Source: Mesostigma viride (taxonomy: Eukaryota; Streptophyta; Mesostigmatophyceae; Mesostigmatales; Mesostigmataceae). From it: a stretch of 64,000 bases of DNA. The notes beneath the pieces are model-generated. The model saw only the letters and a list, made by a program, of their open reading frames with translations. It made no database searches and had not been told where the DNA came from. The translations under genes and the position numbers were made by a program. Below, piece after piece: positions 27,151-62,774 of the stretch (position 1 is the stretch's first letter; every line of letters begins with the position of its first letter). The DNA lies in the NCBI GenBank assembly GCA_009746045.1, contig RPFO01000658.1, positions 26,193 through 90,192 on the forward strand. Reading direction: 5' to 3'.

Positions 27151-27159
27151 TATGTAACA

Positions 27160-37455: not shown

Positions 37456-38524
37456 AGCTTTCATCATCATTCCGTCATCATTCCGTCATCGCGGCTCACA
37501 GAAGGGCACCAGCCTTATGCTGGCATCTGCCACCCCTATAGTGACCCTATAGTGACCGCGGCCTGGGGTGGGGTATCACCCTAAACCCTAAACCCTAAAC
37601 CCTAAACCCTAAACCCTAAACCCTAAACCCTAAACCCTAACACCGTCTCCAGACACCCACGGCATCCCCCCACCCTGGCTATCACCCTCCCACTGTGACT
37701 AAATTTACTAAGTTTACTATGGTTTTTTGGTTTTTTTTCTAGGAAATTCAAGCCAGCTGCCATTAGGTCAAGGTGCTACAGGTGCTGTGTGGTACAGGGT
37801 AGCTATAGTGACCTTATAGTGACCATGGTGGTAGACTCTTATGCTGGCATCCCAGGGTGACTAAATTTACTAAGTTTACTATGGGTTTTGGGTTTTTTTT
37901 CTAGGAAATTCAAGCCACCTGCCACGAGGTCGGTTGTGATCCAGTCCCACCATGCCATAAGAGGGTGAGGCGTGTGGGATATGGGACTAAGTCATTTCCC
38001 GTGGGAGACTATGTTTACTAAGTTTACTATGGGTTTTGGGTTTTATTCCTAGGAAATTAATTCAGGTGTGCACCACCAAAAACATGTCTGAATTTCCCAA
38101 AAAAAGAACCCCCAAAAAACTTAGTAAATATAGTCTCCCACGACAAATGGTCATGAAAACGTAGTTTCCCACGGCAAAATGACCAATAAATCCATCTCCC
38201 ACGGAAAAGGCCATGGGGGCCGGCCAGCGGGGATGCAGCGGAGGGGCGCGGACTGCCAAGCAGTGGCGGGACTGCCAGGTGGTGGTGTGTGTGTGAGGGC
38301 TTGCTGTGTTTTCTCGTGGGAAACTATATTTACTACTAAATTGATATTTTCAGTTGGAAATGGAGGTTTTATTCGATGTGAGTGAGAGTGCATGCACAGG
38401 CTTGCATAATTTCCCGCAGACAAAACCCAAAACCTGTAGTTAGCTTAGTAAATTTAGTAAGGTGCTGGAGGGTCGAGCAGTGCGTGGGAGTTGGCGGACC
38501 CGGCGAGGGCCGCGCGGCGGGGTG
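37456..38524 (+). repeat. Provirus left inverted terminal repeat
   Basis: Begins AGCTTTCATCATCATTCCGT and ends CCGCGCGGCGGGGTG. It matches the right repeat with only a few small differences, the clearest near 38350-38370. Inside are eight CCCTAAA units, paired CTATAGTGACC motifs, and three copies (near 37698, 37858, 38008) of a segment with ACTAAGTTTACTATGG and CTAGGAAATT. Several CCCACG boxes lie in the inner half. No gene is seen. Confidence 0.95.
37579..37641 (+). repeat. Telomere-like (CCCTAAA)8, left
   Basis: Eight exact units and one partial, 123 bases inside the provirus end. The G-rich strand runs outward, the polarity of a real left telomere. Confidence 0.97.
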
Positions 38525-38783
38525 TGCAGAGTGTTAGGGTATATTACCCTGGAAACTCGGACGATCTATGCAAGAATCCCAGACAACCTGCGTCGATGCA
38601 TGAGAGGTTTAACCCATAGTTAGAACTGCAATTCGAGACGAAATGAAAATTGTTTTCAGCATACATTGACGCGTTTTATACTGCATAAACGAATTCATTA
38701 AAAAATATAACACGTTTACATTCGTTATCAGCTCAACAAGAGCGAAATGGCAAGCTCGTTGCCGTCGTCAACAAGACGACACT

Positions 38784-39359
38784 CTACTCCTTGTCCTTGG
38801 AGTTTCCAGTCTGGCTCTTCACAACGTTCGAGCCGGTCTTCCTCTTGTAGACATGGCCGTGGGAGCTTGACGCTTCCTCGCGGCTCCTCTTCCTGCCATT
38901 GGAAGTGGCGGTCTTTGCGTCCTCGAAACCCTTCTTTACCTCCTCCCATGCCCTGTAGAGCGCAATGGGGGAAATGCCTGGCTGGCGCTTGGACTTGGAG
39001 AAGCCATTGAGGAAATCGTCAACCATCTTAACGCACCCGTCGGCTTGGTCGAGGCGAATCCACTCGCAGCGGTCCTCGACCTTCCTCGGCTTTGCCGCAT
39101 TCTTCTCGTAGACCCACTCGACGCAAATTTTTGGCGTCTTGCGGTCGACATCGTCATATCCGGCGTCGTGAATCTTGAAGACCTCGCAGGTAGGTCCGGT
39201 GCCTCCAACAGCACCTTCGTTTCCGGAAAGAAGGGAGACCTTGTGCGTCAGGTGTGCGAGCTGGTCAGATATCTTTGTCTGGCCGTCCTCGAGACCATCG
39301 AGGATTTTTCCAAGCATTGCCAGCGCTTTCTCGCAAGGCCCTGCGTTTCGGGAAGCCAT
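38784..39359 (-). CDS. Hypothetical virus protein, 191 aa
   Basis: First gene inside the left ITR, with an ATG start and an intact frame. The N-terminus (to residue ~45) is predicted helical with heptad-like Leu/Ile spacing. The middle has W-V-Y-E-K and C-E-W-I-R-L stretches. The C-terminal third is basic and low-complexity (G-R-K-R-S-R-E-E and K-R-K-T), like a nuclear localisation or DNA-binding tail. I recognise no family. It is last in the leftward gene series, and the A/T-rich DNA after the stop may hold the 3' end signal. A DNA-associated or virion-internal role is only a guess. Confidence 0.6.
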   Translation of the reverse strand: MASRNAGPCEKALAMLGKILDGLEDGQTKISDQLAHLTHKVSLLSGNEGAVGGTGPTCEVFKIHDAGYDDVDRKTPKICVEWVYEKNAAKPRKVEDRCEWIRLDQADGCVKMVDDFLNGFSKSKRQPGISPIALYRAWEEVKKGFEDAKTATSNGRKRSREEASSSHGHVYKRKTGSNVVKSQTGNSKDKE

Positions 39360-39508
39360 GGCTACCGGCAGAGAGCTTGCAACGTGAGATGCGTGACTTG
39401 CACGTGATTTTGCCTATTTGTGCACAATGTGCCAAGGTCCGTTACGTCTGCTGGCACGGCCTGGACAGGACGCGAAGGTGGCTGGACTTGTACAAGTGTC
39501 GAACTTGG

Positions 39509-40208
39509 CTAAATTTCGGAGCGATGCAAGTCTAAGGTGGCCTCTACCACGTGGCGAGTTCTGGGACGTGAATTTAGGTAAAAAGACTCGTAAGCGTGCG
39601 AGTAATCAACTGGGTCACTTGTCAAGCGCCTGAACGAAGATTCTAGAGTGTCCACGAGAGTGAATTTTCCGAAGCAACCACCCATATATGATGCGCAGAA
39701 ATTACTTGCCATGACAATTGCACTTGTTGAACCCGCGAATCTTTTCAAAACGTAGGATGCACAAAAAACCATTCGTCTGCAACGGGGGAATTGAGTCTCG
39801 TTTCCGTCAAGTCTGTCAATGTACGACGCTCCTACCGTAATATGTCCTCCGTTTCTGAACAGGTGTGGGTTCTTTAGGTTAAAAAACGCGTGTTCGTTGA
39901 TCATGGCGTAAGAAAAGATGTCCCCGTCTGATCCACCATGACAGTCTCTGTGCATAAAACAATGCAATCCTGTTGGTTATGCTCACCACCGGAGAAACTC
40001 GGGGAAACAAGCCCGACAATAGCATGGTCCTCATCAAAAGGTACTGCGTCAACGTAGGCATAATGCACACCACCACGCCATGTACTGTCAATGATGGGCG
40101 CCCTCGGGTCTGGTTTGATTCTAAATTGACGTAACCCGGTGGTGGAGTCAATCACGTTTTCAGAGGCATTGGAATCTAGCACTATTTGATAATAGGTGGG
40201 TATTCCAT
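39509..40208 (-). pseudogene. Hypothetical virus protein, ~230 aa, two frame breaks
   Basis: The ATG at 40206-40208 lies 7 bases after the stop of the fibre gene. The frame changes within the first ten codons (a C-run near 40195) and again near 39953 (a T-run). The three pieces overlap and join into one continuous reading. Recognisable landmarks are Y-Y-Q-I-V-L-D-S-N, W-R-G-G-V-H-Y-A-Y, G-G-S-D-G-D-I-F-S-Y and G-A-S-Y-I-D-R-L-D-G. The composition is rich in beta-formers and aromatic residues. I do not recognise the family. A cysteine protease was considered and rejected because the H-to-C spacing is too short. Position next to the fibre suggests a virion or host-contact role. Confidence 0.5.
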
Positions 40209-40215
40209 TGCTTTA

Positions 40216-41929
40216 TTACAAATTGGAAGAGATAATAGTTTCTACGCTGGGATGGCGGCGGGAGTGCCCCACTTGGCACGAGTACCCGCGGATCCGTTCA
40301 AGTTCCGCTGACGTCTTGGCTGTGTTGTAGATAAGGATCTCGCCGATCCACCCGTCAAAGGCACGACTCGCGTTGGATGAGTCTCCTCCAATAGCGAGAT
40401 TTCCTGAACCAGTTGTAGGGTCCGATCCGATTCTGTTATAACCAGCTCTTCCGTCGAAGCGGGTGAAAAGTGCGTTTGTACTGCTGTTGCATGAAATCGC
40501 CATGACGTGTGCCTTGTTGTCAAAGAACTGAGCCCTGGTGCTCACGGTTTCGTATACACTACCGGGAGCGAATAGGAGAACGGTCTGTACCTCTGACTGA
40601 TAAGACATGAGATAACCATTGCCATCCGTCGATCCAAGCATATAACCTCTAATACCCGTATAACCCCCTATTTCTGGATACGTTGCAGTCGTTAGCTGTT
40701 TGGCGACTAGGAGGATGCTCGCACTGACCCCAATCGCGCTCCAGAAATTGCTCACGGACGCTAACAAGCCAGACCGCGAGTTGATAAAGCGGAGGGACCG
40801 TTTCGAGTTAAGCTCCGCCGCATCCAGCGTAGGACACTTGGTGGAAGTGGCCTGTGTCACGTGGTACCCATTCGGTCCCTTGTCTTTCACGCGCATCACG
40901 TTCCCTCCTGCCGTGTTTTGCTGGGTTGTGCCCGACGCGTCGCTGAACACCGTGGCGCTGTCTGACGGGTCGTACCACGCAAACAACGCTGGGTCTGTTG
41001 CCGGGTTGTAATAGTACGTGAATGACAGCGTGTTGGATGATGCATTTCCAAGCCCTGACGTTGCGCCCGTCACGGCGCCCGCGCCCACGCTTACCGTCGT
41101 CGTGAAGTCCGACATGGTAGTGGTCACATCGAATGTGTACGTGGCACCGCTTCCCAGCAAGTTGGACACGGTTCCGTTGGTCACGGCGATGTCGCCCAAC
41201 GTGAACCCAGTGACCGATGTGCTAAAAGTGGCCGTGATCGGATAAACAGCACCCGTCGGAGTTCCGGACGCAAGAGTCACCGACGGATTTGCCGAGTACG
41301 TGAACGACAGTGTGTTAGAGGCCGCGTTGGCGTTCCCTGTCGATGCGTCCACAACAGTGCCCGCGCCCACGCTGACGTTCGTTGAAGAATTGGCGATGGT
41401 TGGCGTCACTTGGAAGGCGTACGACGCCCCACTTCCGGTCAGGTTGGCGGCGGTCCCGTTGGTCACGGTGATGTCGCCCAACGCGAACCCCGTCACCGAC
41501 CTGCTGAACGTGGCTGTCACGTCCACGGGCGATGAGGATGGCGTCAAGCCCGCGGTCGTCGCGAGGGTTACCGTTGGAGGTGGCGAATACGTGAAGACTA
41601 ACGGAGTTGCTGCGGTGTTGCCGGTTCCTAGCACGCTGCTTGCTGCGTTCCCTCCAACAGTGACTGTTGTCAGTGAATAAGCTACAGCTGGAGTCACAGA
41701 GAATGTGTAAGAGGCGCCGCTACCCGTTAAACCAGATGCAGTACCATTTATGACAACGATATCACCCAAGGTGAACCCGGTGACTGTTTCGCTGAATGCT
41801 GCTGTCATTGTAATCGGTACCGCGCTAGGATACAGTCCGTGTGGTTGTTAACGTGATTGACGGCGCTGTCCTTGCCGGTTTGCGCTTCTTGCGAATCAAA
41901 GCAGGACAAATACCATAATCAAACGACAT
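40216..41929 (-). CDS. Fibre-like protein: Ig-like repeats plus C-terminal LamG-type domain
   Basis: From residue ~20 of the long frame there are repeats of about 85-90 residues. Each has F-x-x-x-V-T-G-F-x-L-G-D-I, a T-N-G-T step, L-x-G-S-G-A-x-Y-x-F and T-L-S-F-T-Y. This matches bacterial-type Ig-like domains, with at least three full copies. After residue ~270 comes F-A-W-Y-D-P-S-D, a V-K-D-K-G-P-N-G-Y-H segment and I-G-E-I-L-I-Y. This is the concanavalin/LamG-like pattern of sugar-binding domains. The long frame starts at 41808, but a better start is the ATG at 41927-41929. Its frame reads a basic N-terminus and the beginning of another Ig repeat before one break near 41840 (beside a G-pair). 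The protein probably projects from the virion and binds host surface glycans. Confidence 0.7.
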
Positions 41930-42153
41930 GGAGCTAATATAATATCATCGTCACATTATTTTTTAGAGTTTGGTAGCGGATACTTGAAGGTGGGGAGAAG
42001 GGGCAATGCTCGTCTAGCTGGCATTGTCATGGACAGACCAGAATCTGCCATTTCAGGAATGTCAAAATCAACTTCAACCTGTTAAACGGATTAGCTGTGA
42101 TGCTAGGGTCTCGAAAGTAGTCCATCGTTTGTCATTACACACGTATATATTTT

Positions 42154-43460
42154 TTAGAGGTACACGGCTGCCTGCCTGCCTGCAGCGATGTCCATCTTTG
42201 ATTCGCATTCCGTGAAGATGTAGGAAATGCAGTCCGTTGCTCCCTTCTCGACTCGCAGCGTGACCACCGATGCCGTGCCACGAAGGTCAAGGCCGCTCAT
42301 GTACTCTGGACCGGCACACGGCATATTAAGGTGACACGCCATCGTGAAGTTGTTGTTTAGCCACGTGGTAGGAGTCATGCCCTCACGGACACAGGACAAA
42401 ACATTCCCTTGGTCACCGAACGCGGACAACAGATTGATCCACGCCTCCGTTGCGTTCGTACGGTATCCAGGCGCCAGGTTGGATCCGTTGATGTCGTATT
42501 GGTAGGAAGTCATACCATCCGCGATGTGATTGAACATCGTATTGCCAGATGCGTTGGTCACGTCCGCGCCGGCAGCAACCTGAATCGCCAGGAGTTTGCT
42601 GGCGGACGCGGAAGACAGCGACGCCTTGATGGCATAGGGAGTGCGAGTCCCGAGCGACTGTTTGGTAGACTGCCACGTCCGCCACTTGAAGGAGAGAGTT
42701 CCACCCTCGGCAAGCCTGGACGAGAAAATCTGGCCCACGATATCTTCTTGGAACCTGTACGTGTCGATGCTAAAGTGGATGTTGCTCAGTTCGAAACCAA
42801 CACCTGTCGCTGCTGGAACGCCACGATGCCATCGCCAGCAGCAGCTGCCTGAACGACGCTAGGAGCATCACCCCTCCGTCCATGAGTGTGATTCGGATCT
42901 CGATGGGGGGAAGAGACTCAGATCCACGATCCGAGGCTCGCCGCTCAGGAATCCCAAAAAGTGGTCGATGACGCCGTCCACTGCGGTGTTTGCCTTCACG
43001 TTGTTTGTGAGAGTGCCAGCCACGTCAGCGGTGACGATGTTGTTATTCTTCGACCAACCAGCGGGAGCCTGCGCGAGATTGTACTCGACACCGCCGTGCA
43101 CCGAGAGCAGCGTATGGAACAGCTGGGAGTAGTCGTTGATGCTGTCGACGGTCTGACCTCCTGCCAGTACCTCGAGGCGCCTGATGATGGAGGACGTGTA
43201 CGCGGGGAACTTTGCGAACCCCGCCGTGGTCGTGGGGGTCCCCGTGAAAAACATTGCGAAGGAGTGCAAGTCCACGAACCCGGACGTGGGGAGGCGACCG
43301 CGACCACAGACCCTTGTTTGATGCCGTCGCTTGCTGAGAGGGTGCTGAGATGGACTCGTTGAGTCGTGTGCTGACCCAGCGCCTTCACGAGGTATTGCAT
43401 GGACTTGGGGATAGCGCGCGAGTACCAGGAATTGTCCGAAGCCATAGATTGTGTATACAT
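42154..43460 (-). pseudogene. Major capsid protein, double jelly-roll, three frame breaks
   Basis: Reading from 43460 or the second Met at 43445, Y-S-R-A-I-P-K-S-M is an early landmark. Then come G-F-V-D-L-H-S-F-A-M-F-F, I-I-R-R-L-E-V-L-A-G-G-Q and S-I-N-D-Y-S-Q-L-F. The I-R-R-L-E-x-x-x-G-G-Q-x-V-x-S-I-N-D-Y pattern is typical of PLV capsid proteins. Breaks lie near 43288 (C-run), 42905-42915 (C-run), 42875-42885 (G-run) and a final change near 42798. The last piece runs to the stop as a clean 194-codon frame. Total length, ~435 codons, suits a PLV or virophage hexon-like protein. It would form trimeric capsomers. The gene lies in the middle of the leftward virion cluster. Whether the breaks are natural is unclear; all lie in homopolymers. 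Confidence 0.75.
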
Positions 43461-43475
43461 TCGAATGAGATATTT

Positions 43476-43832
43476 TTACTGAAGAAGCTGGCCGAGTATG
43501 GGATTTTTTACCTTCGCTCCATCAACCCGTCTTTCGAGGTTGGACAAGGCGCTCAGACCAGTGTTTGCGACCGAGTACGCTTTCCCGAGCAGCGTACTCT
43601 TCGCGATCATGTTGGATGGGATGTGTCCGAGCGCGGAATCGACAATGCCCGCCGCCTGTTTGGCAGCCCGCGCCCCGTCGCCAATTTTTGAGATGACTTC
43701 GCCAGCGACGTGCCCGGCTTTCTTGACAGCTGACACGATGGCCGCCCCGTCGCCGACCCTCTTGATAGCGTTGCCGGCAAACTCTCCCACGCGTCTAGCC
43801 ACGTTTCCGATTGCTCCAAAATTAACTTTCAT
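43476..43832 (-). CDS. Small basic Ala/Gly-rich virion protein candidate, 118 aa
   Basis: The frame is open from 43895, but the ATG at 43830-43832 is preferred. It overlaps the last codons of the gene before it by 11 bases, a compact viral arrangement, and is followed by F-G-A-I-G-N-V-A-R-R. Repeated amphipathic helices (A-G-N-A-I-K-R-V-G-D-G-A, A-G-H-V-A-G-E-V-I) fill the protein. Short, alanine-rich, amphipathic proteins next to the capsid gene are often minor capsid or membrane-active components in adenovirus-like lineages. That role is an inference. No catalytic motif is present. Confidence 0.55.
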   Translation of the reverse strand: MKVNFGAIGNVARRVGEFAGNAIKRVGDGAAIVSAVKKAGHVAGEVISKIGDGARAAKQAAGIVDSALGHIPSNMIAKSTLLGKAYSVANTGLSALSNLERRVDGAKVKNPILGQLLQ

Positions 43833-44685
43833 CGTCCTCGATAGTACTAGATGGCTGAGAAATAAATCTGGTTTGTGGCTGGACGGTCCTGTCAAGGGCC
43901 ATATACTTCAAAACGCTCCCGATCTTCCTCGCCTCTATTCCCATCGCCTTCTGAGGGCTTATGCGGAAGGAGAGCTGAAGAGCCCAATCCGAGTAGACAG
44001 TTATAGGAGCGTCGTCCTCGTCGAGCAGTCGGATCGTGATGTTGCTGGGAGAGTCCTTGAGATGCTGCCACAAAGGGGTCGCTGCCTGCCAAACAATGGG
44101 TTCTAAGAACTGCGACATGTTGGGACAGACGGCCAAAAGGCCTCCATATCCCGTGCCTGTCGACGATGATATCACGTTTCCTCGAACGATGTCGCTGTAT
44201 ACATACACCATTCTCAGTCTCCCATTCGTTGCTGGCCGGTTGCTAGCGAGGACACCTGTGAAAGGATATGATCCTTCCATGAGCCCCAACACCCGGCCCG
44301 TGGGCTCATCCACCGCGACAGAGAACTCGGTGGCATTTGTCACGGTAAAAAGACTAGTCGCCCTGTTGTACGTGACCGAGAACCCAGGATCTACCGCCTT
44401 CAAAGCTTCCTCTATGTTTTTTCGGTTTTCGATAGTCGTGTACGAGCCGAGCGGCAAGGTCACCTTCGTAGGGGACTCGCTGCCAGACAAACGGACAGTG
44501 AAGTATCGGTTTCCTTCGCTGATGTGAGTCTGTTCAAACGGGATGGTCATGAGGGTAAGCCCGACGTCGTGATAATCGTCAAGGAGTCCCGCCGGGATGT
44601 CCCATACCGGATCCACTAGCGTCCCGCGAGTTCGGTTCTCCGTGCGAAGAGTGAGTGTCAGCGTTTCCTGGATGAACTCCTTCAT
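43822..44685 (-). CDS. Candidate penton/minor capsid protein, ~287 aa
   Basis: The longest frame begins with a TTG at 44757. The first ATG, at 44683-44685 before K-E-F-I-Q-E-T-L, is the likely start. Near residue 80 is V-T-L-P-L-G-S-Y-T-T followed by N-I-E-E-A-L. Then F-S-V-T-Y-N and a L-F-T-V-T-N step lead to R-V-L-G-L-M. This order (T-L-P-x-G-x-Y, helix, strand, strand, L-G-x) recurs in penton or fibre-base proteins of PLVs, adintoviruses and related viruses. A predicted beta-rich core and the place beside the capsid gene support a vertex role. The family call is tentative. Another small ATG frame (44579-44779) overlaps the start region and could be an N-terminal extension lost by an indel. 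Confidence 0.5.
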   Translation of the reverse strand: MKEFIQETLTLTLRTENRTRGTLVDPVWDIPAGLLDDYHDVGLTLMTIPFEQTHISEGNRYFTVRLSGSESPTKVTLPLGSYTTIENRKNIEEALKAVDPGFSVTYNRATSLFTVTNATEFSVAVDEPTGRVLGLMEGSYPFTGVLASNRPATNGRLRMVYVYSDIVRGNVISSSTGTGYGGLLAVCPNMSQFLEPIVWQAATPLWQHLKDSPSNITIRLLDEDDAPITVYSDWALQLSFRISPQKAMGIEARKIGSVLKYMALDRTVQPQTRFISQPSSTIEDDES

Positions 44686-44924
44686 CGGCCACTTCTTCTG
44701 ACAATAGCTCAGAAGTAATTTCGTTTGTCCCAAAAACCTTGACGACGCCTTCCTCAATTTTCGCCGATGCCCTTTTCATGGCGCGCTTCGTCTTCCCTGT
44801 GAGTGGCTTCTTCTACAGTAGAGCATGGCTGCCTCAATGAACTCTCGCGGGACATTTGGATGGAGGGTCATCCATTGAGAGATCTCGAGCATCTCGGCGT
44901 CAGTGAACAGCGGGCTGCTCATGT

Positions 44925-45428
44925 TTACTCTTCTGTGAGATTTTTTTCAGCGCCTTCTTTTGGAATTCCCACGACCGTGTTGTGGACCCTCCTGAGATGC
45001 AGCAGGAGGTTTTTTTCGTTTGCGAACGTGCTCTTACACCCGGGTTGTGGGCATTTCCACCTCGCGCCTCCCACCTGGACTCGTTTCCCGACAGGTACAC
45101 CCGCAGGCTCCGGGGGTGCCGCCACTGCTTCATCGACGACAACCGGTTCGGGAGCCGGCGCGACAGGGGCCGGTTGGGCATACGCGGACAACGGGGGGTA
45201 CGCGACCGGTCTAGAGTTCGCCATCACTGACGCCATGAGAAGGGCATCCTTGAACCCTCGCGCCTCTGCGACCTTCCCTTTGTTCACCGCTCTTCGGACC
45301 GGCGCGCTGTGGATGACAATGGTGTTGGTCGATGAAGCGGTCACCTGCGACTGGGGTGCGACCTTACGCTTCGGTTTTCCCCTTTTACTTGAAGGACGGC
45401 GCCGTGCTGATTTCTGACGCCTTGCCAT
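44925..45428 (-). CDS. C2H2 zinc-finger protein with basic N-terminus, 167 aa
   Basis: Residues 1-25 are strongly basic (R-R-Q-K-S-A-R-R-R-P and K-R-G-K-P-K-R-K), fit for nucleic-acid binding and nuclear import. A Pro/Ala-rich linker follows (residues ~75-110). Near residue 125 is one complete finger, C-P-Q-P-G-C, then F, L and H-L-R-R-V-H. Single C2H2 fingers of this kind are common in PLVs and virophages. The protein could package DNA or act as a late regulator. An A/T-rich TTATAAAAAT lies about 25-35 bases before the ATG and may be a TATA element. The coding frame is intact. Confidence 0.65.
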   Translation of the reverse strand: MARRQKSARRRPSSKRGKPKRKVAPQSQVTASSTNTIVIHSAPVRRAVNKGKVAEARGFKDALLMASVMANSRPVAYPPLSAYAQPAPVAPAPEPVVVDEAVAAPPEPAGVPVGKRVQVGGARWKCPQPGCKSTFANEKNLLLHLRRVHNTVVGIPKEGAEKNLTEE

Positions 45429-45475
45429 TTCTGCATATAATCATAGATTTTTATAACGTCCAAGTGAGGGTCTTG

Positions 45476-45946
45476 TTAGTCGACACGGCCATTTTTCCAG
45501 CGCGCGACTTGCAAAACGCCGTAGAGAGCTATGTTTGTTGACGTGTCAGTGGTGATGCGAGGAATCCGCAATGCGATTTCAAACACCCCGTCATCCTCCT
45601 CGTATCCTGAAACAACATTCCAGTTGCTGCCAATTATAACGTTTACCGGCCAGACGGACAGGCCGCTAGCCGTTAAGCGATATGGGTTTGATATGTCGAG
45701 AATCGTTGGTGGGTTGTTATCAAATGTTAACCTGACAAGGATATTGGTCAACGCGGTCGGAAGAGTTAGTTCCGATTGTGTGGCCGGGTCGTGGAAAGAC
45801 ATCACGGCCACAGGGGCGCCGTGCCAAAATTGCGGAAGCGGGTAGTCGTATATGGGCTGCCTCAGACCGACCAAAGAATCTGCTTCCAATATCGTGTGCG
45901 ATATACGCCTAGTTTCTCGGACATCTTCATACAGGGCCACGTCCAT
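45476..45946 (-). CDS. Predicted beta-rich virion protein, 156 aa
   Basis: Clean frame with an ATG start. Landmarks are Y-E-D-V-R-E-T-R-R, L-P-Q-F-W-H-G-A-P-V and I-L-V-R-L-T-F-D. The alternation of hydrophobic and polar residues over most of the length suggests a single jelly-roll or fibre-knob fold. It lies 47 bases before the zinc-finger gene on the same strand and so is probably co-expressed late. No family is recognised. Penton or fibre-associated protein is the most likely class. Confidence 0.5.
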   Translation of the reverse strand: MDVALYEDVRETRRISHTILEADSLVGLRQPIYDYPLPQFWHGAPVAVMSFHDPATQSELTLPTALTNILVRLTFDNNPPTILDISNPYRLTASGLSVWPVNVIIGSNWNVVSGYEEDDGVFEIALRIPRITTDTSTNIALYGVLQVARWKNGRVD

Positions 45947-45993
45947 CCCGTGATTGCCGCCAATTGACGACAGGCTTGAACCATAATAGTAGC

Positions 45994-46698
45994 TTAGGCT
46001 AGAAGCAAATAAAAGCGGGTCGGGCCAGATACTGTTGGATCTAATACCTGGAACGTCACGGTCGCCAAATGGATCATACCAGTAACTGGAGGATCAACCA
46101 GTGAAATATGATCACAGGTTATGTCAACGTACGACGAGGATTTTGATATTGTCGTTGTAGAAAAACCGCCAGTCCACGCTTCTCCAACGACTACGCTGAT
46201 AAGCAACGGATCATTGCTCAACTTGGTGTTTGAAAATCCAAGTCTTACATAAAACTTCCTCACCGACTGACGAGCTGGTAGAATCCCATATATTTTGGCA
46301 GTATATTGGTTCATTTGCACGCCGTATTGAACATCGGGACACTTAACAACCGTGCGGATGACACTCTCATTCGTGAGTGTTAGCTCCTTAAACCAAGTAT
46401 CCGCCACACCCGGTACGGGTTTTGTGACGCTATATTTGCCAAAAATGCTACAATTCCTCGACGAGGTGGACCTGTGACGCAACTCCAACACGTCTCCAAC
46501 GGCCGTGTACGCTCCGGAAGGATTGTTGGTTTTTAGGAGTCGAACTCTATGTCTGAAGGTTATCTTGATGGCCAGACATGCGCGCCGTGGTACTCTCCGC
46601 TCAAGTGGAAAATGGTCGGATGGGCATCGGAATGTACGGGTCAATAATGTCTGTAGGATGGCTGTAAATATACCGGACGAGTTTGAGATTTTGGTCAT
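45994..46698 (-). CDS. Predicted virion protein, 234 aa
   Basis: The ATG directly follows the TGA of the upstream gene with no spacer. The N-terminal 50 residues are basic (L-E-R-R-V-P-R-R, F-R-H-R-V-R). The rest is predicted beta-rich, with Y-G-V-Q-M-N-Q-Y-T-A-K and F-Y-V-R-L-G-F-S-N. The end, F-Y-L-L-L-A, is hydrophobic. No family match is recognised. The abutting start and stop, the shared strand and the composition place it with the structural genes; a fibre or tail-spike part is possible. Confidence 0.5.
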   Translation of the reverse strand: MTKISNSSGIFTAILQTLLTRTFRCPSDHFPLERRVPRRACLAIKITFRHRVRLLKTNNPSGAYTAVGDVLELRHRSTSSRNCSIFGKYSVTKPVPGVADTWFKELTLTNESVIRTVVKCPDVQYGVQMNQYTAKIYGILPARQSVRKFYVRLGFSNTKLSNDPLLISVVVGEAWTGGFSTTTISKSSSYVDITCDHISLVDPPVTGMIHLATVTFQVLDPTVSGPTRFYLLLA

Positions 46699-46959: not shown

Positions 46960-47110
46960 AGTGTTTTCCGCGAACGAAAAAGCATCGTTGCTCCCAAATA
47001 TAGTTGAAAACACAGAAGAAAGGGCCGTCTATGAGCTGCTCTGAAAAAACACACATTTGCTAGGTGCAGGAGTGGCTGTTTTTACGAAATAGAATTTTTC
47101 GGGAGACCCT

Positions 47111-48733
47111 TCAAAGTAATATTTCGTCGCTTCTGTTTGCAGCGGTCACGAGTGGCGCGAGAATGATTCTAGGAATGAAGAGTCGTAACAGGCCCGTATA
47201 TCTCCATGTTCCCCCTGACAGATTTGGCGAGTCCTTTGCGGTTATAATCCTGTATCTGAGTTCTACATCATCGCCTTCGGATGGATTTTGAAACGTCGTT
47301 GTCTTCAACGTCCCATCCAAGGCCCCTTGAGATACTCCGTTCGCCAACAGATGAAAACCGGTGAGAGGAGGCAACGACTTTCCCCACCCCACATCATGGT
47401 CCGCGTAGACGCCGTTGATCGCGATTTTTACAGGATTTAGATATGAAATGTAGGAACTTGGTGTCCGGATGCCGGAGTGCAGTTGGCTCATTTTTGAAAC
47501 GCATACCATCACCCCTCCTTTGTGGGTGGTGTAGGAGGTGAGGGTCGAGTCGTTGTAGACGTCTATCTCGTAGTTCATATACTTGTTACTATCTGCCGCG
47601 ACTGGCGCGGTGATTACGGCGTCTTCCCCGCGCAGTCCCCCGTTTTGCGAGAGGGAGACTCCGCCGATGGTCGGAGTGGTCGGCGTGAGCTGGGTGGAAT
47701 TCATGTACCACCTGATGGGGAGTTTGCGTTGGTATGCGAAGGGGGTCGTCATCTTTATGCCCTGTTTGAGGGTCGTTCCCTCTACGACCTCCCAATTAGC
47801 GGTGGTTGGATTGGTGCTCCAGTAGAGTGCGTTCACAGGGTCAATCGGACCCATTCGCCAGTCCGTCAGTGGCGAGTATGTACGCGTGATGGTGAAGGAT
47901 CTCCCAGTTAGTGGAAGGCGGCGGTTGTCGTCGCGAATCGTGGCGAAAGACAACAACTCCACGCGGAGAGGGAGGCCGTTAAATCGAGATCCGCCGAGAC
48001 CATAGAAAGAGTCGGAAAAGTATGGATATCCTACCTCTCCGTCCACAACGCTCTCCCCCGTGCGCGCCTGGGTCGTGTGGTAGTCGCGATAGGTAAACTT
48101 ACAGATTCCACTCGCGTCGCCATTCGTAACGTTGTAGGGCAGCTGGACTCGCACATCCTGGTCATTGATGACGTTGAACGCGTTTTGGTGCGACACGGTC
48201 GTCCCGTCTTCGAGATGGAGGACGAAATCCCCGTTCAAGTTAGCTATCGACGTTTTGCCTACCCCGTGTTGGTCAAAAAGGTAGTCCAATTGCGCGCGGG
48301 TCAGGACTCTGCCACCAGGGTCTAGCAACGTATCAGGGCTAAAGTCGAAGACGTGGTACTGGGTCGCTCCCACTTTCGCCGTAAGGTAAGGTTCATTTAG
48401 AGTGAGATCGTCGACTAAAGTAGTCCCTGATTTAAAATAGGAATACCCATTCACGACGAGACTGTAAGCAAGTTCCGATGGGTCGCTTGCGGTCTCGTCG
48501 TCGTAATTGTCTCCGAGTCGCACATTTGTCGGCTGGCTCGGGTAGAAAATTTTGAATCCGTCGACAACGAGTGACTCATCGAATGGATGTGAAATGCCAA
48601 GAAGTAACGTCACGCTAGCTTGAAGCCCATCTATGTCTGTTTCGATGTTAGAAACACGCTCCTCCATTTCAGGGTCGAGCGTTAACCCGGTGGCGAGATT
48701 GGTCGGTCTGCTCAATGTTGTTAGAACGACCAT
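47111..48733 (-). CDS. Large fibre/spike-like virion protein, 540 aa
   Basis: Intact frame, the first gene of the leftward arm, starting 24 bases from the rightward arm. Residues ~20-45 (E-M-E-E-R-V-S-N-I-E-T-D-I-D-G-L-Q-A-S-V) form a short heptad coiled coil, as at the base of trimeric phage and adenoviral fibres. The remainder is long, Thr/Ser/Tyr-rich and predicted beta-structured, with no cysteine-rich or enzymatic motif. G-V-G-K-T-S near residue 155 looks like half a P-loop but lacks the rest of an ATPase. A receptor-binding or vertex spike role is inferred. It is one of two large fibre candidates in this virus. Confidence 0.55.
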   Translation of the reverse strand: MVVLTTLSRPTNLATGLTLDPEMEERVSNIETDIDGLQASVTLLLGISHPFDESLVVDGFKIFYPSQPTNVRLGDNYDDETASDPSELAYSLVVNGYSYFKSGTTLVDDLTLNEPYLTAKVGATQYHVFDFSPDTLLDPGGRVLTRAQLDYLFDQHGVGKTSIANLNGDFVLHLEDGTTVSHQNAFNVINDQDVRVQLPYNVTNGDASGICKFTYRDYHTTQARTGESVVDGEVGYPYFSDSFYGLGGSRFNGLPLRVELLSFATIRDDNRRLPLTGRSFTITRTYSPLTDWRMGPIDPVNALYWSTNPTTANWEVVEGTTLKQGIKMTTPFAYQRKLPIRWYMNSTQLTPTTPTIGGVSLSQNGGLRGEDAVITAPVAADSNKYMNYEIDVYNDSTLTSYTTHKGGVMVCVSKMSQLHSGIRTPSSYISYLNPVKIAINGVYADHDVGWGKSLPPLTGFHLLANGVSQGALDGTLKTTTFQNPSEGDDVELRYRIITAKDSPNLSGGTWRYTGLLRLFIPRIILAPLVTAANRSDEILL

Positions 48734-48757
48734 TTATTATCTACCTAGAATATAAAC
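48734..48757. promoter_or_regulatory. 24-bp divergent promoter gap
   Basis: Only 24 bases, A/T-rich (TTATTATCTACCTAGAATAT plus AAAC), separate the ATGs of the leftward and rightward arms. Both promoters must overlap coding DNA or lie within this gap. Confidence 0.55.
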
Positions 48758-49285
48758 ATGGCCTCTGAGGCTTCAGAGACCCCAACGAGCTACCAAGACG
48801 AAACCTTCGCCGAGACGCGGGAAGAGCAGGTTGACCTGGTCAAGACAATTCGAAAGGGACAACCGCTGAATGATGAACAGAAAAAAGCCCTTCGCGACAA
48901 AATGAGGGTTTACCAGCAACGCGCAAAAGCCGAGAGGGAGAAGAGACGAAACGAAGAAAAGGAGGCAGAGATAACGAAACGAAAGGTCCTTGCAAAGGAA
49001 TTGGAGATTCAGCGGCAAAGGCTAGTCGAACTCGAGCTGCAAGAAGCTCGTAACAAATCGCGGATTGAACGCCTTCTCGCTGAAGATTCCGTCGCCTCAA
49101 CCCCCGCCGACACGCCAAAACCAAGACGGGGTCGAAAGCCCAAGGAGACAGAGCCGGACTCTCCGCCACCCCCGATCAAGACCCGACAGCTCCCACCTCC
49201 ACCACCGCCACCTGTCGCGATGACGCCATACGAGATGCGCATGGCCGCCATCCGCGCGTCTCTCCTTGCTAGTCTGGACGATTAA
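48758..49285 (+). CDS. AT-hook, coiled-coil protein, 175 aa
   Basis: First gene of the rightward arm. Residues ~45-110 are a continuous charged helix (E/K/R/Q-rich) with a strong coiled-coil pattern. Near residue 125 is R-R-G-R-K-P-K, close to an AT-hook core. A poly-proline stretch follows (P-P-P-P-P-P near residue 150). The C-terminus is helical. The stop lies 12 bases before the ATPase ATG, so the two are probably co-expressed. A DNA-tethering, scaffold or packaging-accessory role fits but is not shown. No family is recognised. Confidence 0.6.
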   Translation: MASEASETPTSYQDETFAETREEQVDLVKTIRKGQPLNDEQKKALRDKMRVYQQRAKAEREKRRNEEKEAEITKRKVLAKELEIQRQRLVELELQEARNKSRIERLLAEDSVASTPADTPKPRRGRKPKETEPDSPPPPIKTRQLPPPPPPPVAMTPYEMRMAAIRASLLASLDD

Positions 49286-49297
49286 AATGTCTTCAGA

Positions 49298-50182
49298 ATG
49301 ATAATGGCTATCATCGAAGAGCGACGAATTCATTCACTTGAGAACAAAGACATCAAGCAACGATACGCCCCACAGCGTCCTGCTCCACCGAATATGCCGA
49401 GTCTTCATTTCATCGCAAACTTCTGCGGAGCTCGACGGTCTGGGAAAACTACATCGGCAGTCAACATGGCGAAGGCTTACTTTGCTAACAACTCATTCGA
49501 CAAGCTGTACCTCATTTCAGGGAGTGCCCACACGGAGCCGAAATACAAGGAGCTCCCGGAACCAGCTATGACGATGGAAGTCTACTCTAACCTGGCATTC
49601 GATGGGATGATAGATCATATAAAGTCTGACCTCCACGAATACGAGAGGTACAAGGACGATCTCAAGGTCTGGGAAACGTTCAAACGCGAATACGTGGATG
49701 GGAAAAAAAACGCAGAACTCATGGACCTCTCCATGTACCTACGCCTTGATGCAATGAACTGGGATAAACCTGCGACAAGGTTCGAGCACGGTCCTCCTTC
49801 GTCGCTCATTCTGATAGACGACATGCAAGGCAGTGCCCTCTATCAGAGCTCTAGCAAAAACGCTGTTGCGGCTTTCGCGTTCAAACACAGACACTTCCTC
49901 ACGAGCATGATTTTCCTGACACAGGCGTACACGAGCGGTGGCGTACCACGAGCAGTGCGAGCGAATATATCGTTTCTTGCGCTGTTCAGAACGAAGGACC
50001 ATCGAGCCGCGCGACAGATCGCGGAAGAGAGCGCGGGGTCTGTGGCGCCGGATGAGTTTCTCGCGCTATGGGACCACGCCGTCAAGGACGATCCTCACGA
50101 CTTCTTTGCTGTCGACTTCGACCAGCGCGACCCGAAAAAAATGTTTCGTCGAAACTTCAATACATTTCTCTCGATAAAATAA
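49298..50182 (+). CDS. Genome-packaging ATPase, FtsK/HerA (A32) type
   Basis: 294 residues, the usual size for PLV and virophage packaging ATPases. The Walker A motif G-A-R-R-S-G-K-T is at residues 44-51, preceded by the strand H-F-I-A-N-F-C. The Walker B motif, S-S-L-I-L-I-D-D, is at about 168-175, and A-F-K-H-R-H and F-L-T-Q-A-Y follow in the sensor region. The enzyme pumps the genome into preformed capsids using ATP. It starts 12 bases after the AT-hook gene; a second Met at codon 3 is an alternative start. The frame is intact, one of the clearest genes of the element. The match is by motif order only. Confidence 0.88.
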   Translation: MIMAIIEERRIHSLENKDIKQRYAPQRPAPPNMPSLHFIANFCGARRSGKTTSAVNMAKAYFANNSFDKLYLISGSAHTEPKYKELPEPAMTMEVYSNLAFDGMIDHIKSDLHEYERYKDDLKVWETFKREYVDGKKNAELMDLSMYLRLDAMNWDKPATRFEHGPPSSLILIDDMQGSALYQSSSKNAVAAFAFKHRHFLTSMIFLTQAYTSGGVPRAVRANISFLALFRTKDHRAARQIAEESAGSVAPDEFLALWDHAVKDDPHDFFAVDFDQRDPKKMFRRNFNTFLSIK

Positions 50183-50204
50183 TTTTCTCTGAACATGATA
50201 TACT

Positions 50205-50384
50205 ATGGATATTCCGTCCATCAAACGATACGCAGGCGCCGAGAAGGAGTACGTGTTGGACACCCAAGCACTCCTCCGATATTGTTCGGGTTCTCGACTG
50301 GGGCAGAAAACTCTAGAACGTGTCGTCAGGATCCTTCAAGAAGCAGGCCACCACGACACGATTCCGTCCACTGTCACGACATGA
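50205..50384 (+). CDS. Small virus ORF, 59 aa
   Basis: The ATG follows the ATPase stop by 22 bases. The product is helical and charged (I-K-R-Y-A-G-A-E-K-E-Y, T-L-E-R-V-V-R-I-L-Q-E-A). Its TGA overlaps the ATG of the next frame (ATGA at 50381-50384), a compact arrangement that argues for real coding. No family recognised. Confidence 0.45.
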   Translation: MDIPSIKRYAGAEKEYVLDTQALLRYCSGSRLGQKTLERVVRILQEAGHHDTIPSTVTT

Positions 50385-50698
50385 GCCCCGAAATCCGATT
50401 GGCCATCCTCGCCTTGGTGGGCGATCGCAGGCGTCCACGTGGGCGCTCACCCTCCAAAACGGAAAAACGACACGAACCGAAACGGCCTCGAGGGCGCCCA
50501 AGGATCCACCCCGTAGGGTATAAAAAGCCTCGAGCCAAAAAATTGTCTCATGTTCAGTCATCAGATGACGGTGACCGTAGAGGAGCGTCGCGAGCAATGG
50601 CGACGGGCCCAGGCGAAGAGGCGAGCAATCGCCCGCGACCAGACGAACTGCATCTCGGCGAAAAGCAAGGTCAAGAAGGGCGTCTGGAATCCCAGTGA
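50381..50698 (+). CDS. AT-hook protein, 105 aa, or N-terminal part of the recombinase
   Basis: Starts at the ATGA overlap. Near residue 35 it has K-R-P-R-G-R-P-R-I-H-P, a canonical AT-hook (core R-G-R-P), and R-R-P-R-G-R-S-P just before it. AT-hooks bind the minor groove of A/T-rich DNA, notable for a virus that lies in a TTAA tract. Its last 50 codons overlap the start of the recombinase frame. Either it is a separate gene, or one indel splits a longer recombinase with an AT-hook N-terminus. The frame beyond codon ~55 is doubtful. Confidence 0.45.
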   Translation: MSPEIRLAILALVGDRRRPRGRSPSKTEKRHEPKRPRGRPRIHPVGYKKPRAKKLSHVQSSDDGDRRGASRAMATGPGEEASNRPRPDELHLGEKQGQEGRLESQ

Positions 50699-51833
50699 CC
50701 GATGGATCGCAAATAACCCCGAGTGCGCGGAAAAAATCGGCTTGCAGGCGACCTCTCCACCCTCGCCGGAGCCACCGCACCACGAGGAACCGCCTGCGCG
50801 ACCTACTGATGGACGATATTGGACGTTCAACGAGGCCGTCGCCGCAGCGGATTCCCGGCCAGAGCATCACGAGCCTGGCAGGCCCTCGAGAGAGCGCGGG
50901 GCGACGCGCAAAACCGCGAAGGGGTATATCGGCAGGCTGCGAGTTCTCCTTGACAAAATGGGGTGCTCGCAGGACGAATCAGTCGACTGCCTCGCAGACA
51001 CCGCCCGTGTCCTGCGCGTCGTCCACGAAACCTCGGAACCCAAACGCAAGCTCGCACACTCGAAAGAGGATGCGTGGAGGGAGAACGAGAAGAACTTGCT
51101 CGGAGTGATAAACGGGGTGAATCGAATGATGCCACCTGAGAAGAGGCTCCCACGCGACGTGACGGACGCGTACGCTGCTCGAGTCAATGAGCTGAAGGTC
51201 GGCGATCTCGACAGGAAATTCGACAGGGCCGAGAGCAAGCCACTGAGGTACACGTACGAGCAGCTCCAGCGGATCGCCGCCGCCGAGTACAAAAAGGACC
51301 CTACGTCTGACGCCGCTTTGATGGGTCTTATTTACCTGTCCGGCGAGAAACTGCCACCGACCAGGTACGACCACGACAAAATGCGCATCGTCAGTTCTAT
51401 CAGCGAGCTCGAGCCACACGAGAACGGATACATTCCGAGCGAGCGCCGCATGATAATTCAACGTTTTAAGACGGCAGAGACGTACGGCACGTACGACTAC
51501 CAAATTCCAGACGGGTACAAGAAGCTGATTAACGCGTTGCAGGCTCGAGCTGATCAGAAGTACGTGTTCGAGGACCCAAAAAATCCAGGCGAATACATGA
51601 AGCACGAGTATTATTCTGCGAAGTACAACCGCATCTACCACGGCATTGATGCAACGAGGCAGGCGTACATCACCCGTTTCTTGAAGGGCGCTTCGTGGAA
51701 AAAGCGAAAATGGGCTGGTGACTTGATGGGGCACGACGTACTTACAGGAGCCGTTTACGAGCGGCAGGCGGGGGACCCCTCTCCCCAGGGCGGCGAGACT
51801 GGCGGACGTCGGCTGAGGCCGAGGAAAAAGTAG
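50550..51833 (+). CDS. Tyrosine recombinase/integrase
   Basis: 427 residues. The C-terminal half carries the catalytic set: Arg at 272 in P-P-T-R-Y-D-H-D-K-M, a second Arg at 370 in A-T-R-Q-A-Y, His 395 in M-G-H-D and the nucleophile Tyr 403 in A-V-Y-E-R. The x-P-P-x-R-x-D-Y/H-x-x-M form of the first box is typical of PLV and virophage tyrosine recombinases. These enzymes join viral DNA ends or circles to host DNA through a covalent 3'-phosphotyrosine. The N-terminal 230 residues hold a helical DNA-binding arm. The catalytic residues and frame are intact. It was probably used for integration into the TTAA tract, although that site would be unusual for this enzyme class. Confidence 0.8.
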   Translation: MFSHQMTVTVEERREQWRRAQAKRRAIARDQTNCISAKSKVKKGVWNPSDRWIANNPECAEKIGLQATSPPSPEPPHHEEPPARPTDGRYWTFNEAVAAADSRPEHHEPGRPSRERGATRKTAKGYIGRLRVLLDKMGCSQDESVDCLADTARVLRVVHETSEPKRKLAHSKEDAWRENEKNLLGVINGVNRMMPPEKRLPRDVTDAYAARVNELKVGDLDRKFDRAESKPLRYTYEQLQRIAAAEYKKDPTSDAALMGLIYLSGEKLPPTRYDHDKMRIVSSISELEPHENGYIPSERRMIIQRFKTAETYGTYDYQIPDGYKKLINALQARADQKYVFEDPKNPGEYMKHEYYSAKYNRIYHGIDATRQAYITRFLKGASWKKRKWAGDLMGHDVLTGAVYERQAGDPSPQGGETGGRRLRPRKK

Positions 51834-52182
51834 ACAGTTTTCCCGTGGGAAATTTTCATGAATGTCGAAAAGGATATCCTAAACTGCATGCATTATACAG
51901 GAAATAAAAAAGTTCCATGGGACCATTTTTCTCAAGGGTCGAGGTTCGAGGGTCTGTGTGGTTTTTAGACGAACTGAAATTTTTTAATCGAAACTTTTTT
52001 TTTTCTAAGCATACGGTATACAACCTTCCAGAATGGTCTCGAACTTCAACCTGCATGACGACACGGTCGACCGACACGACGTAACCGACAAGCCGACACG
52101 ATTCGATTCCTCGTGGGAGATCTCCCACGGGAATAAAGGCGGACTCTCCCACGACAATCCGCACTCTCGCGCTCACACCACC
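51834..52182 (+). promoter_or_regulatory. Replication-gene upstream region with CCCACG palindrome
   Basis: A perfect 18-base palindrome CGTGGGAGATCTCCCACG lies at 52112-52129. Another CTCCCACG follows at about 52143, and CCGTGGGAAA near 51844. The same box recurs in both ITRs. Translation from the upstream ATG at 52033 would run through it, so the start at 52183 is preferred. It could be a promoter or a replication-protein site. Confidence 0.5.
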
Positions 52183-54713
52183 ATGGAGGCTCCCGGTCCA
52201 CCCATCACCGCAAAGATGATCAAGCTCGCGCGGAGGATTAAATCTAAGAACTGGAACGATAACGCCCTAGAGCTATCCGCTAACGAAGCGCTCAGGCTCA
52301 TTCGCGCTGGCGGCCATTGGTGCGAGGTTCTAAAAGAAGACGATGTTGTCAAGCCATATCTCGATTACGACCTCAAATTCGATCACGAGGAAGGAGAGCC
52401 GGGAGTCACCGTCGACGACATCATCAACGACGTCTTCGAAAATTGTAACATCAACCATGAGAACGTCAAAGTACTCACGCGTCGTCCGCGTTGGGTCGAA
52501 ACCAAGGGCAAGAGGACGTTCAAGTACTCGTTCCGTGTCTACGTGAAGGGTTGGAAAGTGACGGTGAAGGATATGGGGCGTCTCATGAAGGCCAAACTTC
52601 TGCAGCTCCCCGGATGGGACGATTCCATTTACAACGACGGCCGATTGCTGAACTGTGTGTATAACACGAAGGACGTCGAGCCAGGATGCCCAATTCTCTC
52701 TCCCGTTGACGACAACGAGCCCATCGAAACGTTTGTCGCTCAATTGGTGGACGACGATGCAAAGTGGCTGCCTGTCGACGACTTGATCGACGGTCTCGAG
52801 CCTCCAGCAAAAAAAGGGAAAAAGTCGAGCGGTGGCAAGCGTGACGTTGGACGCCCTTCGACGAGGGTTTTCGCCACTAGCAGCGACGAAATCACGCACC
52901 TGGACAGTGACGACATCGCCAACGTCACTTCGCGCATCGTGGCCAGGTGGACCGAGCGTTACCCGAATTTTGAAGACCACGCGCTGGATGCTGCGAGCCT
53001 TCACTACTCGAAGGACCGTGACAACTACGTCCTGCGCACGTTCAGCCACTTGTGCCTCGGAGCTGGCCGCGAGCACGGGAGCAACCACACTTACCTCGTC
53101 GTATCGCGTGACGGCATCGTTCAGAAATGCCACGACTCGGACTGCCGCGACTTCTCGAGCGAAGTTGTCGCTCTCGGCGACGAACTCAAGTCTTTGCTTT
53201 TCCCATCCGAGGACGCCACGACGTCTACATCCTCGCGCACTTCGAGAATTCTCATCGCGGTGTAGCCGAGGCCTGTGTGGTGGGATTTGCTGGGACTTGG
53301 CGGTACAGCGGTGGGTCGTTGTGGAATTTCAGGGACCACAGGTGGCGCCAGCTGATGACTGACGAACCTCTGCGGAACGCCATCGCTGAGATGGACAAGC
53401 TCCCGTCCAAGTACGGGAGGTGTCGCGCTATTTTTCTGAACGGCGTGACAAGGCCGAGTATCTGGGCGACGACAAGAAGGCGGCGTACTTCGAAGCCCTG
53501 GCTGACTCCGCTGTGAAGATCTCCCACAACTTGCGTGACGGCCCTTACATCAACAACATCCGCAACGAGGTCAAGGGAATCATCTACGCCGAGCCAACCG
53601 AATTCGTGGAGAGGCTCGACAAAGATCCGCTGCTCCTGTGCTTCACTAACGGGGTTCTGGAACTCGCTACCATGACCCTGCGACCTGGACGGCCCGACGA
53701 CATGATTTCCAAGCAGATGGACTTCCCTACACGCCAGACGCCGACACTTGTGCTATGGAAGTGAAGTTGGAGGAAATTTTCCCAGACGCTGTGACCCGGG
53801 CCCACTTCAAGCGTTTCCTTGGCTCACTGATGGTGGGGGACAATCGTGACGAGCAAGGATACTTCTGGAAGGGTTCAGGACGGAACGGGAAGGGCTTCCT
53901 GATGAGCGTCATCAGGTCAGCGTACGGCGACAACGTGAACAACGTTCGTGCTGCTTTCTACACTTCGCAGGAGCGGGACAGCGATGTGGCGACGCCAGAA
54001 GTTTTGGAATGCGCGGCATGCGCGTTGGTTTGACGAACGAGCTCCAGCGCAACGTCCCTATCGTGGCGTCGAAGTTCAAGAATATCACTGGCAACGGGGT
54101 CCTGAAGGCGCGTGCTCTCCACTCGAACGAGTACGTGCAATTTCCTACGACGTTCAAGCTAGTTTTGGACACCAACAACGACGTGAAATTTGACGAGCAC
54201 TGCGAGGGATTGTGGGACCGCGCTGTCATGTACCCTTTCGTGAGCAAGTTTTGCACGCAGGAGGAAATTGACGCGGAACCTGAGCGTCAGCACATGAAGC
54301 TCATCGACACCACACTGGGCACTCGCGCCAAGGAGTTTGCGTTAGGATTGATGGCGATTTCGATTAGAGAGTGCGTAGTATACCTGGCAGCAACTAGCAA
54401 GGACGAGAGGTGGCCGCCTAGGTCGGAGGAGATGAGAGTCCTGAAGACGGACTCGAAGGTTTCGTCTGATGGTGTGGGTGCCTTTATCGAGGAGCTAAAG
54501 AAAAGCGGCGAGCTCGTCAAGTGCAGCGGAGAGGCAGTGCCTGTCAAGGTTCTTCTCGACGAGTACATTGCTTCGACTGGTATGGATAGCTACAAGGCGA
54601 AATTATTTGGAGACGAGGCAAAGGCGGTTTTGGGCTGCAGGCTGACTCAGTACAAATTGAGCGACGGTTCCAGGCCGAACTGCTTTATTGGATGGCGGTA
54701 TTGCCCTTCGTAA
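52183..54713 (+). pseudogene. Primase-SF3 helicase fusion, four frame breaks
   Basis: Start at ATG 52183 (context CACCACCATGG). The N-terminal primase has Y-L-D-Y-D-L-K-F-D, with the catalytic D-x-D at residues 61 and 63, then K-Y-S-F-R-V-Y-V. C-H-D-S-D-C (316-321) fits the zinc site often found between primase and helicase. Downstream, F-T-N-G-V-L-E-L and R-P-G-R-P-D-D mark the D5 N-terminal region. G-S-G-R-N-G-K-G (53873) is the SF3 Walker A. G-L-T-N-E-L-Q (54024) and L-D-T-N-N-D-V (54165) fit the B and C motifs. Breaks lie near 53217 (C), 53430 (T-run), 53735 (C) and 54010 (A). Each needs one base and all lie in short homopolymers. The enzyme would unwind DNA and lay primers. The last gene of the right arm, it ends 78 bases before the ITR. 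Confidence 0.8.
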
Positions 54714-54791
54714 GTAATATTTTAATGAAACGATTTTTCACATGTCAATCGATGGTCCTTCCGCTTTCAGATGGACCCCCAGACGTCACCT

Positions 54792-55857
54792 CACCCCGCC
54801 GCGCGGCCCTCGCCGGGTCCGCCAACTCCCACGCACTGCTCGACCCTCCAGCACCTTACTAAATTTACTAAGCTAACTACAGGTTTTGGGTTTTGTCTGC
54901 GGGAAATTATGCAAGCCTGTGCATGCACTCTCACTCACATCGAATAAAACATTATTTCCAACTGAAAATATCAATTTAGTAGTAAATATAGTTTCCCACG
55001 AGAAAACACAGCAAGCCCTCACACACACACCACCACCTGGCAGTCCCGCCACTGCTTGGCAGTCCGCGCCCCTCCGCTGCATCCCCGCTGGCCGGCCCCC
55101 ATGGCCTTTCCGTGGGAGATGGATTTATTGGTCATTTTGCCGTGGGAAACTACGTTTTCATAACCATTTGTCGTGGGAGACTATATTTACTAAGTTTTTT
55201 GGGGGTTCTTTTTTTGGGAAATTCAGGTGTGTTTTTGGTGGTGCACACCTGAATTAATTTCCTAGGAATAAAACCCAAAACCCATAGTAAACTTAGTAAA
55301 CATAGTTCCCACGGGAAATGACTTAGTCCCATATCCCACACGCCTCACCCTCTTATGGCATGGTGGGACTGGATCACAACCGACCTCATGGCAGGTGGCT
55401 TGAATTTCCTAGAAAAAAAACCCAAAACCCATAGTAAACTTAGTAAATTTAGTCACCCTGGGATGCCAGCATAAGAGTCTACCACCATGGTCACTATAAG
55501 GTCACTATAGCTACCCTGTACCACACAGCACCTGTAGCACCTTGACCTAATGGCAGCTGGCTTGAATTTCCTAGAAAAAAAACCAAAAAACCATAGTAAA
55601 CTTAGTAAATTTAGTCACAGTGGGAGGGTGATAGCCAGGGTGGGGGGATGCCGTGGGTGTCTGGAGACGGTGTTAGGGTTTAGGGTTTAGGGTTTAGGGT
55701 TTAGGGTTTAGGGTTTAGGGTTTAGGGTTTAGGGTGATACCCCACCCCAGGCCGCGGTCACTATAGGGTCACTATAGGGGTGGCAGATGCCAGCATAAGG
55801 CTGGTGCCCTTCTGTGAGCCGCGATGACGGAATGATGACGGAATGATGATGAAAGCT
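54792..55857 (-). repeat. Provirus right inverted terminal repeat
   Basis: Reverse complement of the left repeat, with a few small indels (for instance at about 54945-54960). It ends GATGATGAAAGCT and is followed at once by (AATT)n/(TTAA)n. It contains the same CCCACG boxes, the three ACTAAG repeats and the telomere-like tract. Confidence 0.95.
55673..55735 (+). repeat. Telomere-like (TTTAGGG)8, right
   Basis: Eight exact units, the G-rich strand again pointing outward to the provirus end about 120 bases away. Confidence 0.97.
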
Positions 55858-62031: not shown

Positions 62032-62764
<733 letters not shown>

Positions 62765-62774
62765 GTCATACATA

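Follow-up and report, generated by a model that had tools for sequence, protein, structure and literature searches.

The window analysed here is a stretch of 64,000 nt from Mesostigma viride (assembly GCA_009746045.1, contig RPFO01000658.1, positions 26,193-90,192 of the forward strand), which contains a genuine Polinton-like virus (PLV) provirus of known kind at 37,457-55,856 (18,400 nt). Protein matches point to this host as well. The element is bounded by inverted terminal repeats at 37,457-38,524 and 54,792-55,856, which are 99.1% identical; their 1,068-nt alignment contains 7 mismatches and 3 gaps, and only one of these differences lies outside the inner half. The element is flanked by (TTAA)n tracts of 43 nt on the left (37,414-37,456) and 40 nt on the right (55,857-55,896). 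This bears out the first-pass annotation, which had described inverted terminal repeats of ~1.07 kb bounding 18.4 kb and a TTAA-type tract on both sides. Within the window, the words TTTACTAA (10 of 10 occurrences) and TATAGTGACC (8 of 8) are restricted to the inverted repeats, and the GC content of the element (0.528) is like that of the remaining window (0.526). With 18.4 kb and repeats of 1.07 kb, the element falls within the 14-40 kb and has the long terminal inverted repeats that characterise PLVs, a comparison which does not cover the linearity of a free form. Its proposed integration into a host repeat is supported by an element-free copy of the left flank in the same window (20,176-20,478, ~89% identity) with a TTAA tract at the junction position; together with this tract, the host-repeat copy occupies 20,129-20,478 on the minus strand. 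The right flank carries a diverged direct copy of the left-flank host hairpin (81% over 64 nt), so that the insertion site lies within a host repeat cluster and the element-free copy is not collinear with both flanks. As a whole, and including the mechanism proposed below, the locus is very probably best explained as an endogenous PLV of a multi-copy Mesostigma viride family. New findings on this family are the TTAA tract next to every readable end and two unusual features absent from the first-pass annotation, namely a telomere array in every readable end and variation of the capsid cassette, the latter visible only with the genome at hand.

The genes fall into two divergent blocks with a common border near 48.75 kb. 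The minus-strand block contains the capsid, fibre and small open reading frames (ORFs), while the plus-strand block codes for a 175-aa charged protein, the ATPase, the recombinase and the primase-helicase. The major capsid protein gene (42,154-43,460, minus strand) is broken in frame in the assembly, and its fold was assessed via the homologue P0004, which is 55% identical to the window capsid. Double-jelly-roll capsids made up all 50 fold matches listed for the low-confidence model of P0004, including those of mavirus and Sputnik, though not as the best ones, and the test that the first-pass annotation had set for its capsid assignment thus came out in its favour. Next to it lies a 139-aa ORF (43,476-43,895, minus strand; 36% identity in the related copy C1185), whose homologue forms a single product with the capsid protein in the Mesostigma gene model P0005. 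In another gene model, P0010, the capsid end is fused to a lectin-like fibre domain, as though the adjacent fibre gene had been read in. The first fibre candidate (40,216-41,808, minus strand; 58-70% in C1185) contains Ig-like (Big_12) repeats and a lectin-like domain (Laminin_G_3), whereas the second, a 540-aa protein (47,111-48,733, minus strand), has no family match. The proposed minor virion proteins are likewise candidates and mostly without a family match. They comprise a protein of 287-311 aa (43,822-44,757, minus strand; no family match, 58% in C1185), which is a minor capsid (penton) candidate by its position, and three small ORFs (44,925-46,698, minus strand; 34-54% in C1185), which are virion candidates by cassette membership and one of which has a weak C2H2 zinc-finger match. 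A 191-aa protein without a Pfam match is encoded at 38,784-39,359 (minus strand) in the left shared arm and is 91% identical in C1185.

The plus-strand block starts with the gene of the 175-aa protein (48,758-49,285), the first of a shared right half, which is 99-100% identical in C2100, C1579 and C1185. It is followed by an open frame for an A32-like packaging ATPase (49,298-50,182), supported by a Pox_A32 match with an E value of 4.6e-4 and 20.2 bits, slightly below the curated cut-off of 22.8. The tyrosine recombinase (50,550-51,833) is likewise encoded in an open frame and is 100% identical in C2100 and C1579. The catalytic set of tyrosine recombinases is R-K-(H/x)xxR-H-Y, and the residues R272, K307, R370, H395 and Y403 are invariant in four sequences, in support of this assignment. 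The primase-SF3 helicase gene (52,033-54,713) lies in several pieces because its frame is broken in the assembly, and is supported by matches to a UL52-type primase end (26.3 bits, cut-off 21) and to D5_N (43.2 bits, cut-off 22.4), while pieces of a P4-type primase C-terminus matched below the cut-off. No Pfam match to a protein-primed PolB, a retroviral-type integrase or a cysteine protease of the virophage type was obtained among the ORFs submitted, which were part of the window's ORFs, and scans of IMG/VR found no relative. The earlier claim of a PLV provirus with all hallmark genes is supported.

To survey the family, the assembly (439.9 Mb, 2,243 contigs) was searched with the inner 860 nt of the repeat. 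Of 112 candidates, 40 places including the window's two repeats were scored and proved 93-100% identical; their outer edges were all read, and as one of them (L055) runs into N, 39 ends were readable. All 39 have an array in which 3-11 perfect CCCTAAA units (TTTAGGG) follow one another; it lies at a fixed position ~120 nt inside the end and between conserved flanking words, with a variant unit inside the array of L035 and a degenerate terminal unit in a few copies. In the window, the arrays comprise 9.0 periods of ACCCTAA at 37,578-37,640 (TTTAGGG on the minus strand) and 9.0 periods of TTAGGGT at 55,673-55,735 (plus strand), and all 14 occurrences of a 14-nt telomere word lie within the inverted repeats. 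At either end of the element the G-rich strand points outward, which is also its direction at host chromosome ends. Two of 20 host contig ends from 10 contigs contain more than 200 TTTAGGG units per 1,500 nt (3 were N and 15 had no array), which identifies TTTAGGG as the host telomere unit. The two ends had equal unit numbers in six of eight pairs on the same contig (window, C113, C2100, C1762, C1106 and C1790) and unequal ones in C1435 (5 + variant + 2 vs. 8) and C1 (3 vs. 9). The pairs of C1790 and C1 may not represent single elements, as a comparison of their termini over 115 nt showed 12 and 45 differences, respectively.

We lean slightly towards the view that the array is a functionless passenger microsatellite derived from one ancestor. 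It varies between 3 and 11 units like any tandem repeat, and a single inheritance explains why every copy carries it; the copies were recovered through similarity of the neighbouring sequence. Yet the unit matches the host telomere exactly, the orientation is that of chromosome ends, and the array has not been lost from any of the 39 readable ends despite repeat divergence to 93%. The alternative that the family uses the arrays, with host telomere proteins binding the linear viral ends and protecting or tethering the DNA, is conceivable but rather unlikely; telomere-mimicking ends would then be combined with a capsid-swapping chassis, so that the virion type changes. Inner arrays of plant-type telomere units together with 15-16-nt repeats were also seen in three IMG/VR viral contigs (L001, L006 and L007), for which a search showed no relation to the window's ORFs.

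A TTAA tract of 11-63 nt (median 18) adjoins the terminus in 39 of 39 readable ends, with one ambiguous case of two nested termini (L026) and one copy without the usual cap (L052). The host flanks are near-identical in the pairs L029/L048 and L039/L043, which may be alleles or duplicates and would leave ~37 distinct ends. That the tract is borne by the element, each copy bringing its own terminal (TTAA)n, appears doubtful to us, although at least 11 nt of tract occur at every readable end and the adjoining bases vary by terminus subtype. The element-free host-repeat copy already possesses a tract at the junction position, three ends (L019, L022 and L024) share one site in another host repeat with flanks 91-96% identical, and the tract length is variable. 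It is possible that the element carries a short tract of its own, which recombines with those of the host. As a short palindromic repeat, the tract does not allow a target duplication to be measured at these junctions.

The first-pass annotation had further regarded the element as apparently complete and perhaps live. This was not borne out, because the capsid and primase-helicase frames are broken and the end repeats differ from each other. The capsid region is not a single open frame, with shifts near 43.28-43.30 kb and within ~42.80-42.91 kb, and the primase-helicase changes frame several times between ~53.2 and 54.05 kb. These repeated changes in two genes of the assembled copy speak for decay, as do frame changes in some sister copies: the ATPase is affected in both C1579 and C1185, the recombinase in C1185 and the end of the helicase in C2100. 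They could mean that the element is a decaying fossil whose essential capsid and helicase genes were truly inactivated after insertion, and the 7 mismatched positions and 3 gaps between its end repeats would fit this, but we consider such a dead element unlikely. Beyond the frame changes, there are no premature stops in the pieces read, and every primase-helicase piece of C1579 is in one frame. Moreover, substitutions usually far outnumber indels in neutral change. Over 6,034 nt, the right half of the element is set apart from C2100 by 4 substitutions and 6 indels of one base, 3 of these indels falling in runs of at least 3 equal bases. Relative to C1664, the capsid gene has 4 substitutions, has lost single bases three times and has gained 2 nt once, whereas sister-to-sister controls gave 12 substitutions with 3 indels and 7 substitutions with 1 indel. 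Because one-base indels exceed substitutions, unlike in neutral change, assembly errors on this contig of 90,192 nt are a more likely cause of the frame breaks in the window copy than decay. Passages of Bellas 2023 (PMC10120064) report frame breaks of this kind in integrated viruses that vanished after error correction. A frame change of the ATPase near residue 247 is common to both copies with the second capsid type described below (L091 1165-2045 on C1579 and L092 2423-3303 on C1185). The few substitutions between near-identical sisters such as the window copy and C2100 also support a recent spread of the family.

A search of the genome for capsid genes gave 515 candidates, of which the best 103 were scored; several were partial, and 102 of these 103 places had no internal stop. 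Twelve capsid loci were fetched for comparison and fell into three groups. The first (C2100, C1106, C1664 and C1835) is 97-100% identical to the window's two capsid pieces, the second (C1435, C1 at 2.485 Mb, C1185 and C1579, to which C1468 also belongs) shows only 56-61% identity, and the third (C335, C667 and C224) 58-71%. The first four loci of the second group are ~90-99% alike among themselves. These four and the four loci of the first group lie near end repeats of this family, and judging by the distance and, for C1185, the gene order, they probably share an element with them.

The remaining parts of the elements are almost the same despite the different capsids. The right half of C1579 is 98-100% identical to the window, with 427 of 427 aligned recombinase residues identical, and that of C1185 is 98-100% identical save for one 21-aa piece at 76%, its helicase position falling beyond the contig end. 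For C1435, the main pieces of the primase-helicase are 96-100% identical, while matches to the ATPase, the recombinase and the 175-aa protein were not found within the 8-kb piece read. The DNA of C1185 is 94.6% identical over 37,688-39,716, shows scattered matches of 65-77% at ~40.05-47.09 kb and reaches 94.8% again from 48,667 onwards; the proteins encoded between these shared arms are 34-70% identical in matching pieces. Compared as DNA, the C1185 piece L092 had no match longer than 80 nt to window positions 47,094-48,667, where the 540-aa gene is located. This drop of identity between highly identical flanks indicates that the two elements have both arms in common but differ in one virion-gene block of ~9 kb, and cassette exchange by homologous recombination through the arms would be the simplest route. 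Chimeric assembly or insertion of one element into another is quite improbable: many near-identical copies favour misassembly and the ATPase and recombinase expected in C1435 are missing from the piece read, but the difference is present in C1579 and C1185 as well, the pieces of C1185 keep the window's gene order, and the four capsid loci of the second type resemble one another closely.

Other repeats were noticed elsewhere in the window. Arrays of 2- and 4-nt units (CATC, CACG, CCCT, CCAC and TC) occur at 36,543-37,081, adjoining the left side of the element, and at 62,137-64,000 and 11,002-11,430, and satellite arrays with a 70-71-nt unit and higher-order periods occupy 2,211-3,027 and 4,156-7,311. 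A reverse-transcriptase element is present in two copies with 99.7% identity (25,598-27,153 and 30,198-31,752), one of which is broken in frame by a one-base indel in a C run.

For the endogenous PLV family preferred here, we propose that the recombinase would link the ends of the virus to (TTAA)n tracts, of which several lie in host repeats, and that the genome would rely on its own primase-helicase for replication and on the ATPase for packaging. Recombination between co-resident or co-infecting elements, through their near-identical arms, would supply a single replication and integration chassis with other capsids and fibres. Repeat turnover would alter the length of the telomere arrays, which have the orientation of chromosome ends and to which host telomere proteins may be recruited. 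The locus reveals a PLV family that is large and has spread recently in an early-branching relative of land plants, and it offers a natural example of near-identical proviruses that differ in an entire block of virion genes. It also raises the question of whether linear algal viral DNAs borrow chromosome-end protection.

Within the literature covered, no paper pairs "Mesostigma viride" with "polinton-like" or "Mesostigma" with "virophage". Parts of Bellas 2023 (PMC10120064) name Streptophyta among the hosts of PgVV-group capsids, so that the occurrence of PLVs in this lineage was already known. As far as the relevant parts of Yutin 2015 (PMC4642659) and Bellas 2023 (PMC10120064) go, the algal PLVs of the PgVV and related groups share with our element the size, the long terminal inverted repeats, the integration in algal genomes and common genes for capsid, packaging ATPase and SF3 helicase with primase, as well as a tyrosine recombinase in some, a likeness by features and not by a capsid tree; telomere arrays and capsid cassettes on a near-identical chassis are undescribed in those parts. 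Telomere arrays in PLV repeats are likewise not described in those passages of PLV papers that mention telomeres, within the part of that literature covered, and "telomer" does not occur in the portion of Hackl 2021 (PMC8547959) searched. Herpesviruses such as HHV-6 also carry the host telomere unit at their genome ends and, according to passages of PMC10175614, integrate into telomeres, whereas the Mesostigma elements are located at TTAA tracts with the array ~120 nt inside the end, and no sequence relation is implied. The cryptophyte PLV expansions treated in sections of Bulzu 2025 (PMC12220804) similarly involve many copies per genome and recombinase-bearing elements, the latter flanked by unusual and in part symmetric repeats of 7-23 bp. 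The junction in Mesostigma, a green-alga host, is by contrast always a TTAA tract without measurable duplication. Finally, the endogenous virophages of Cafeteria also represent many related integrated elements in one protist, and gene exchange among them is stated in parts of Hackl 2021 (PMC8547959); they belong to another, mavirus-like capsid lineage, whereas in the Mesostigma family a virion block of ~9 kb differs between near-identical arms.
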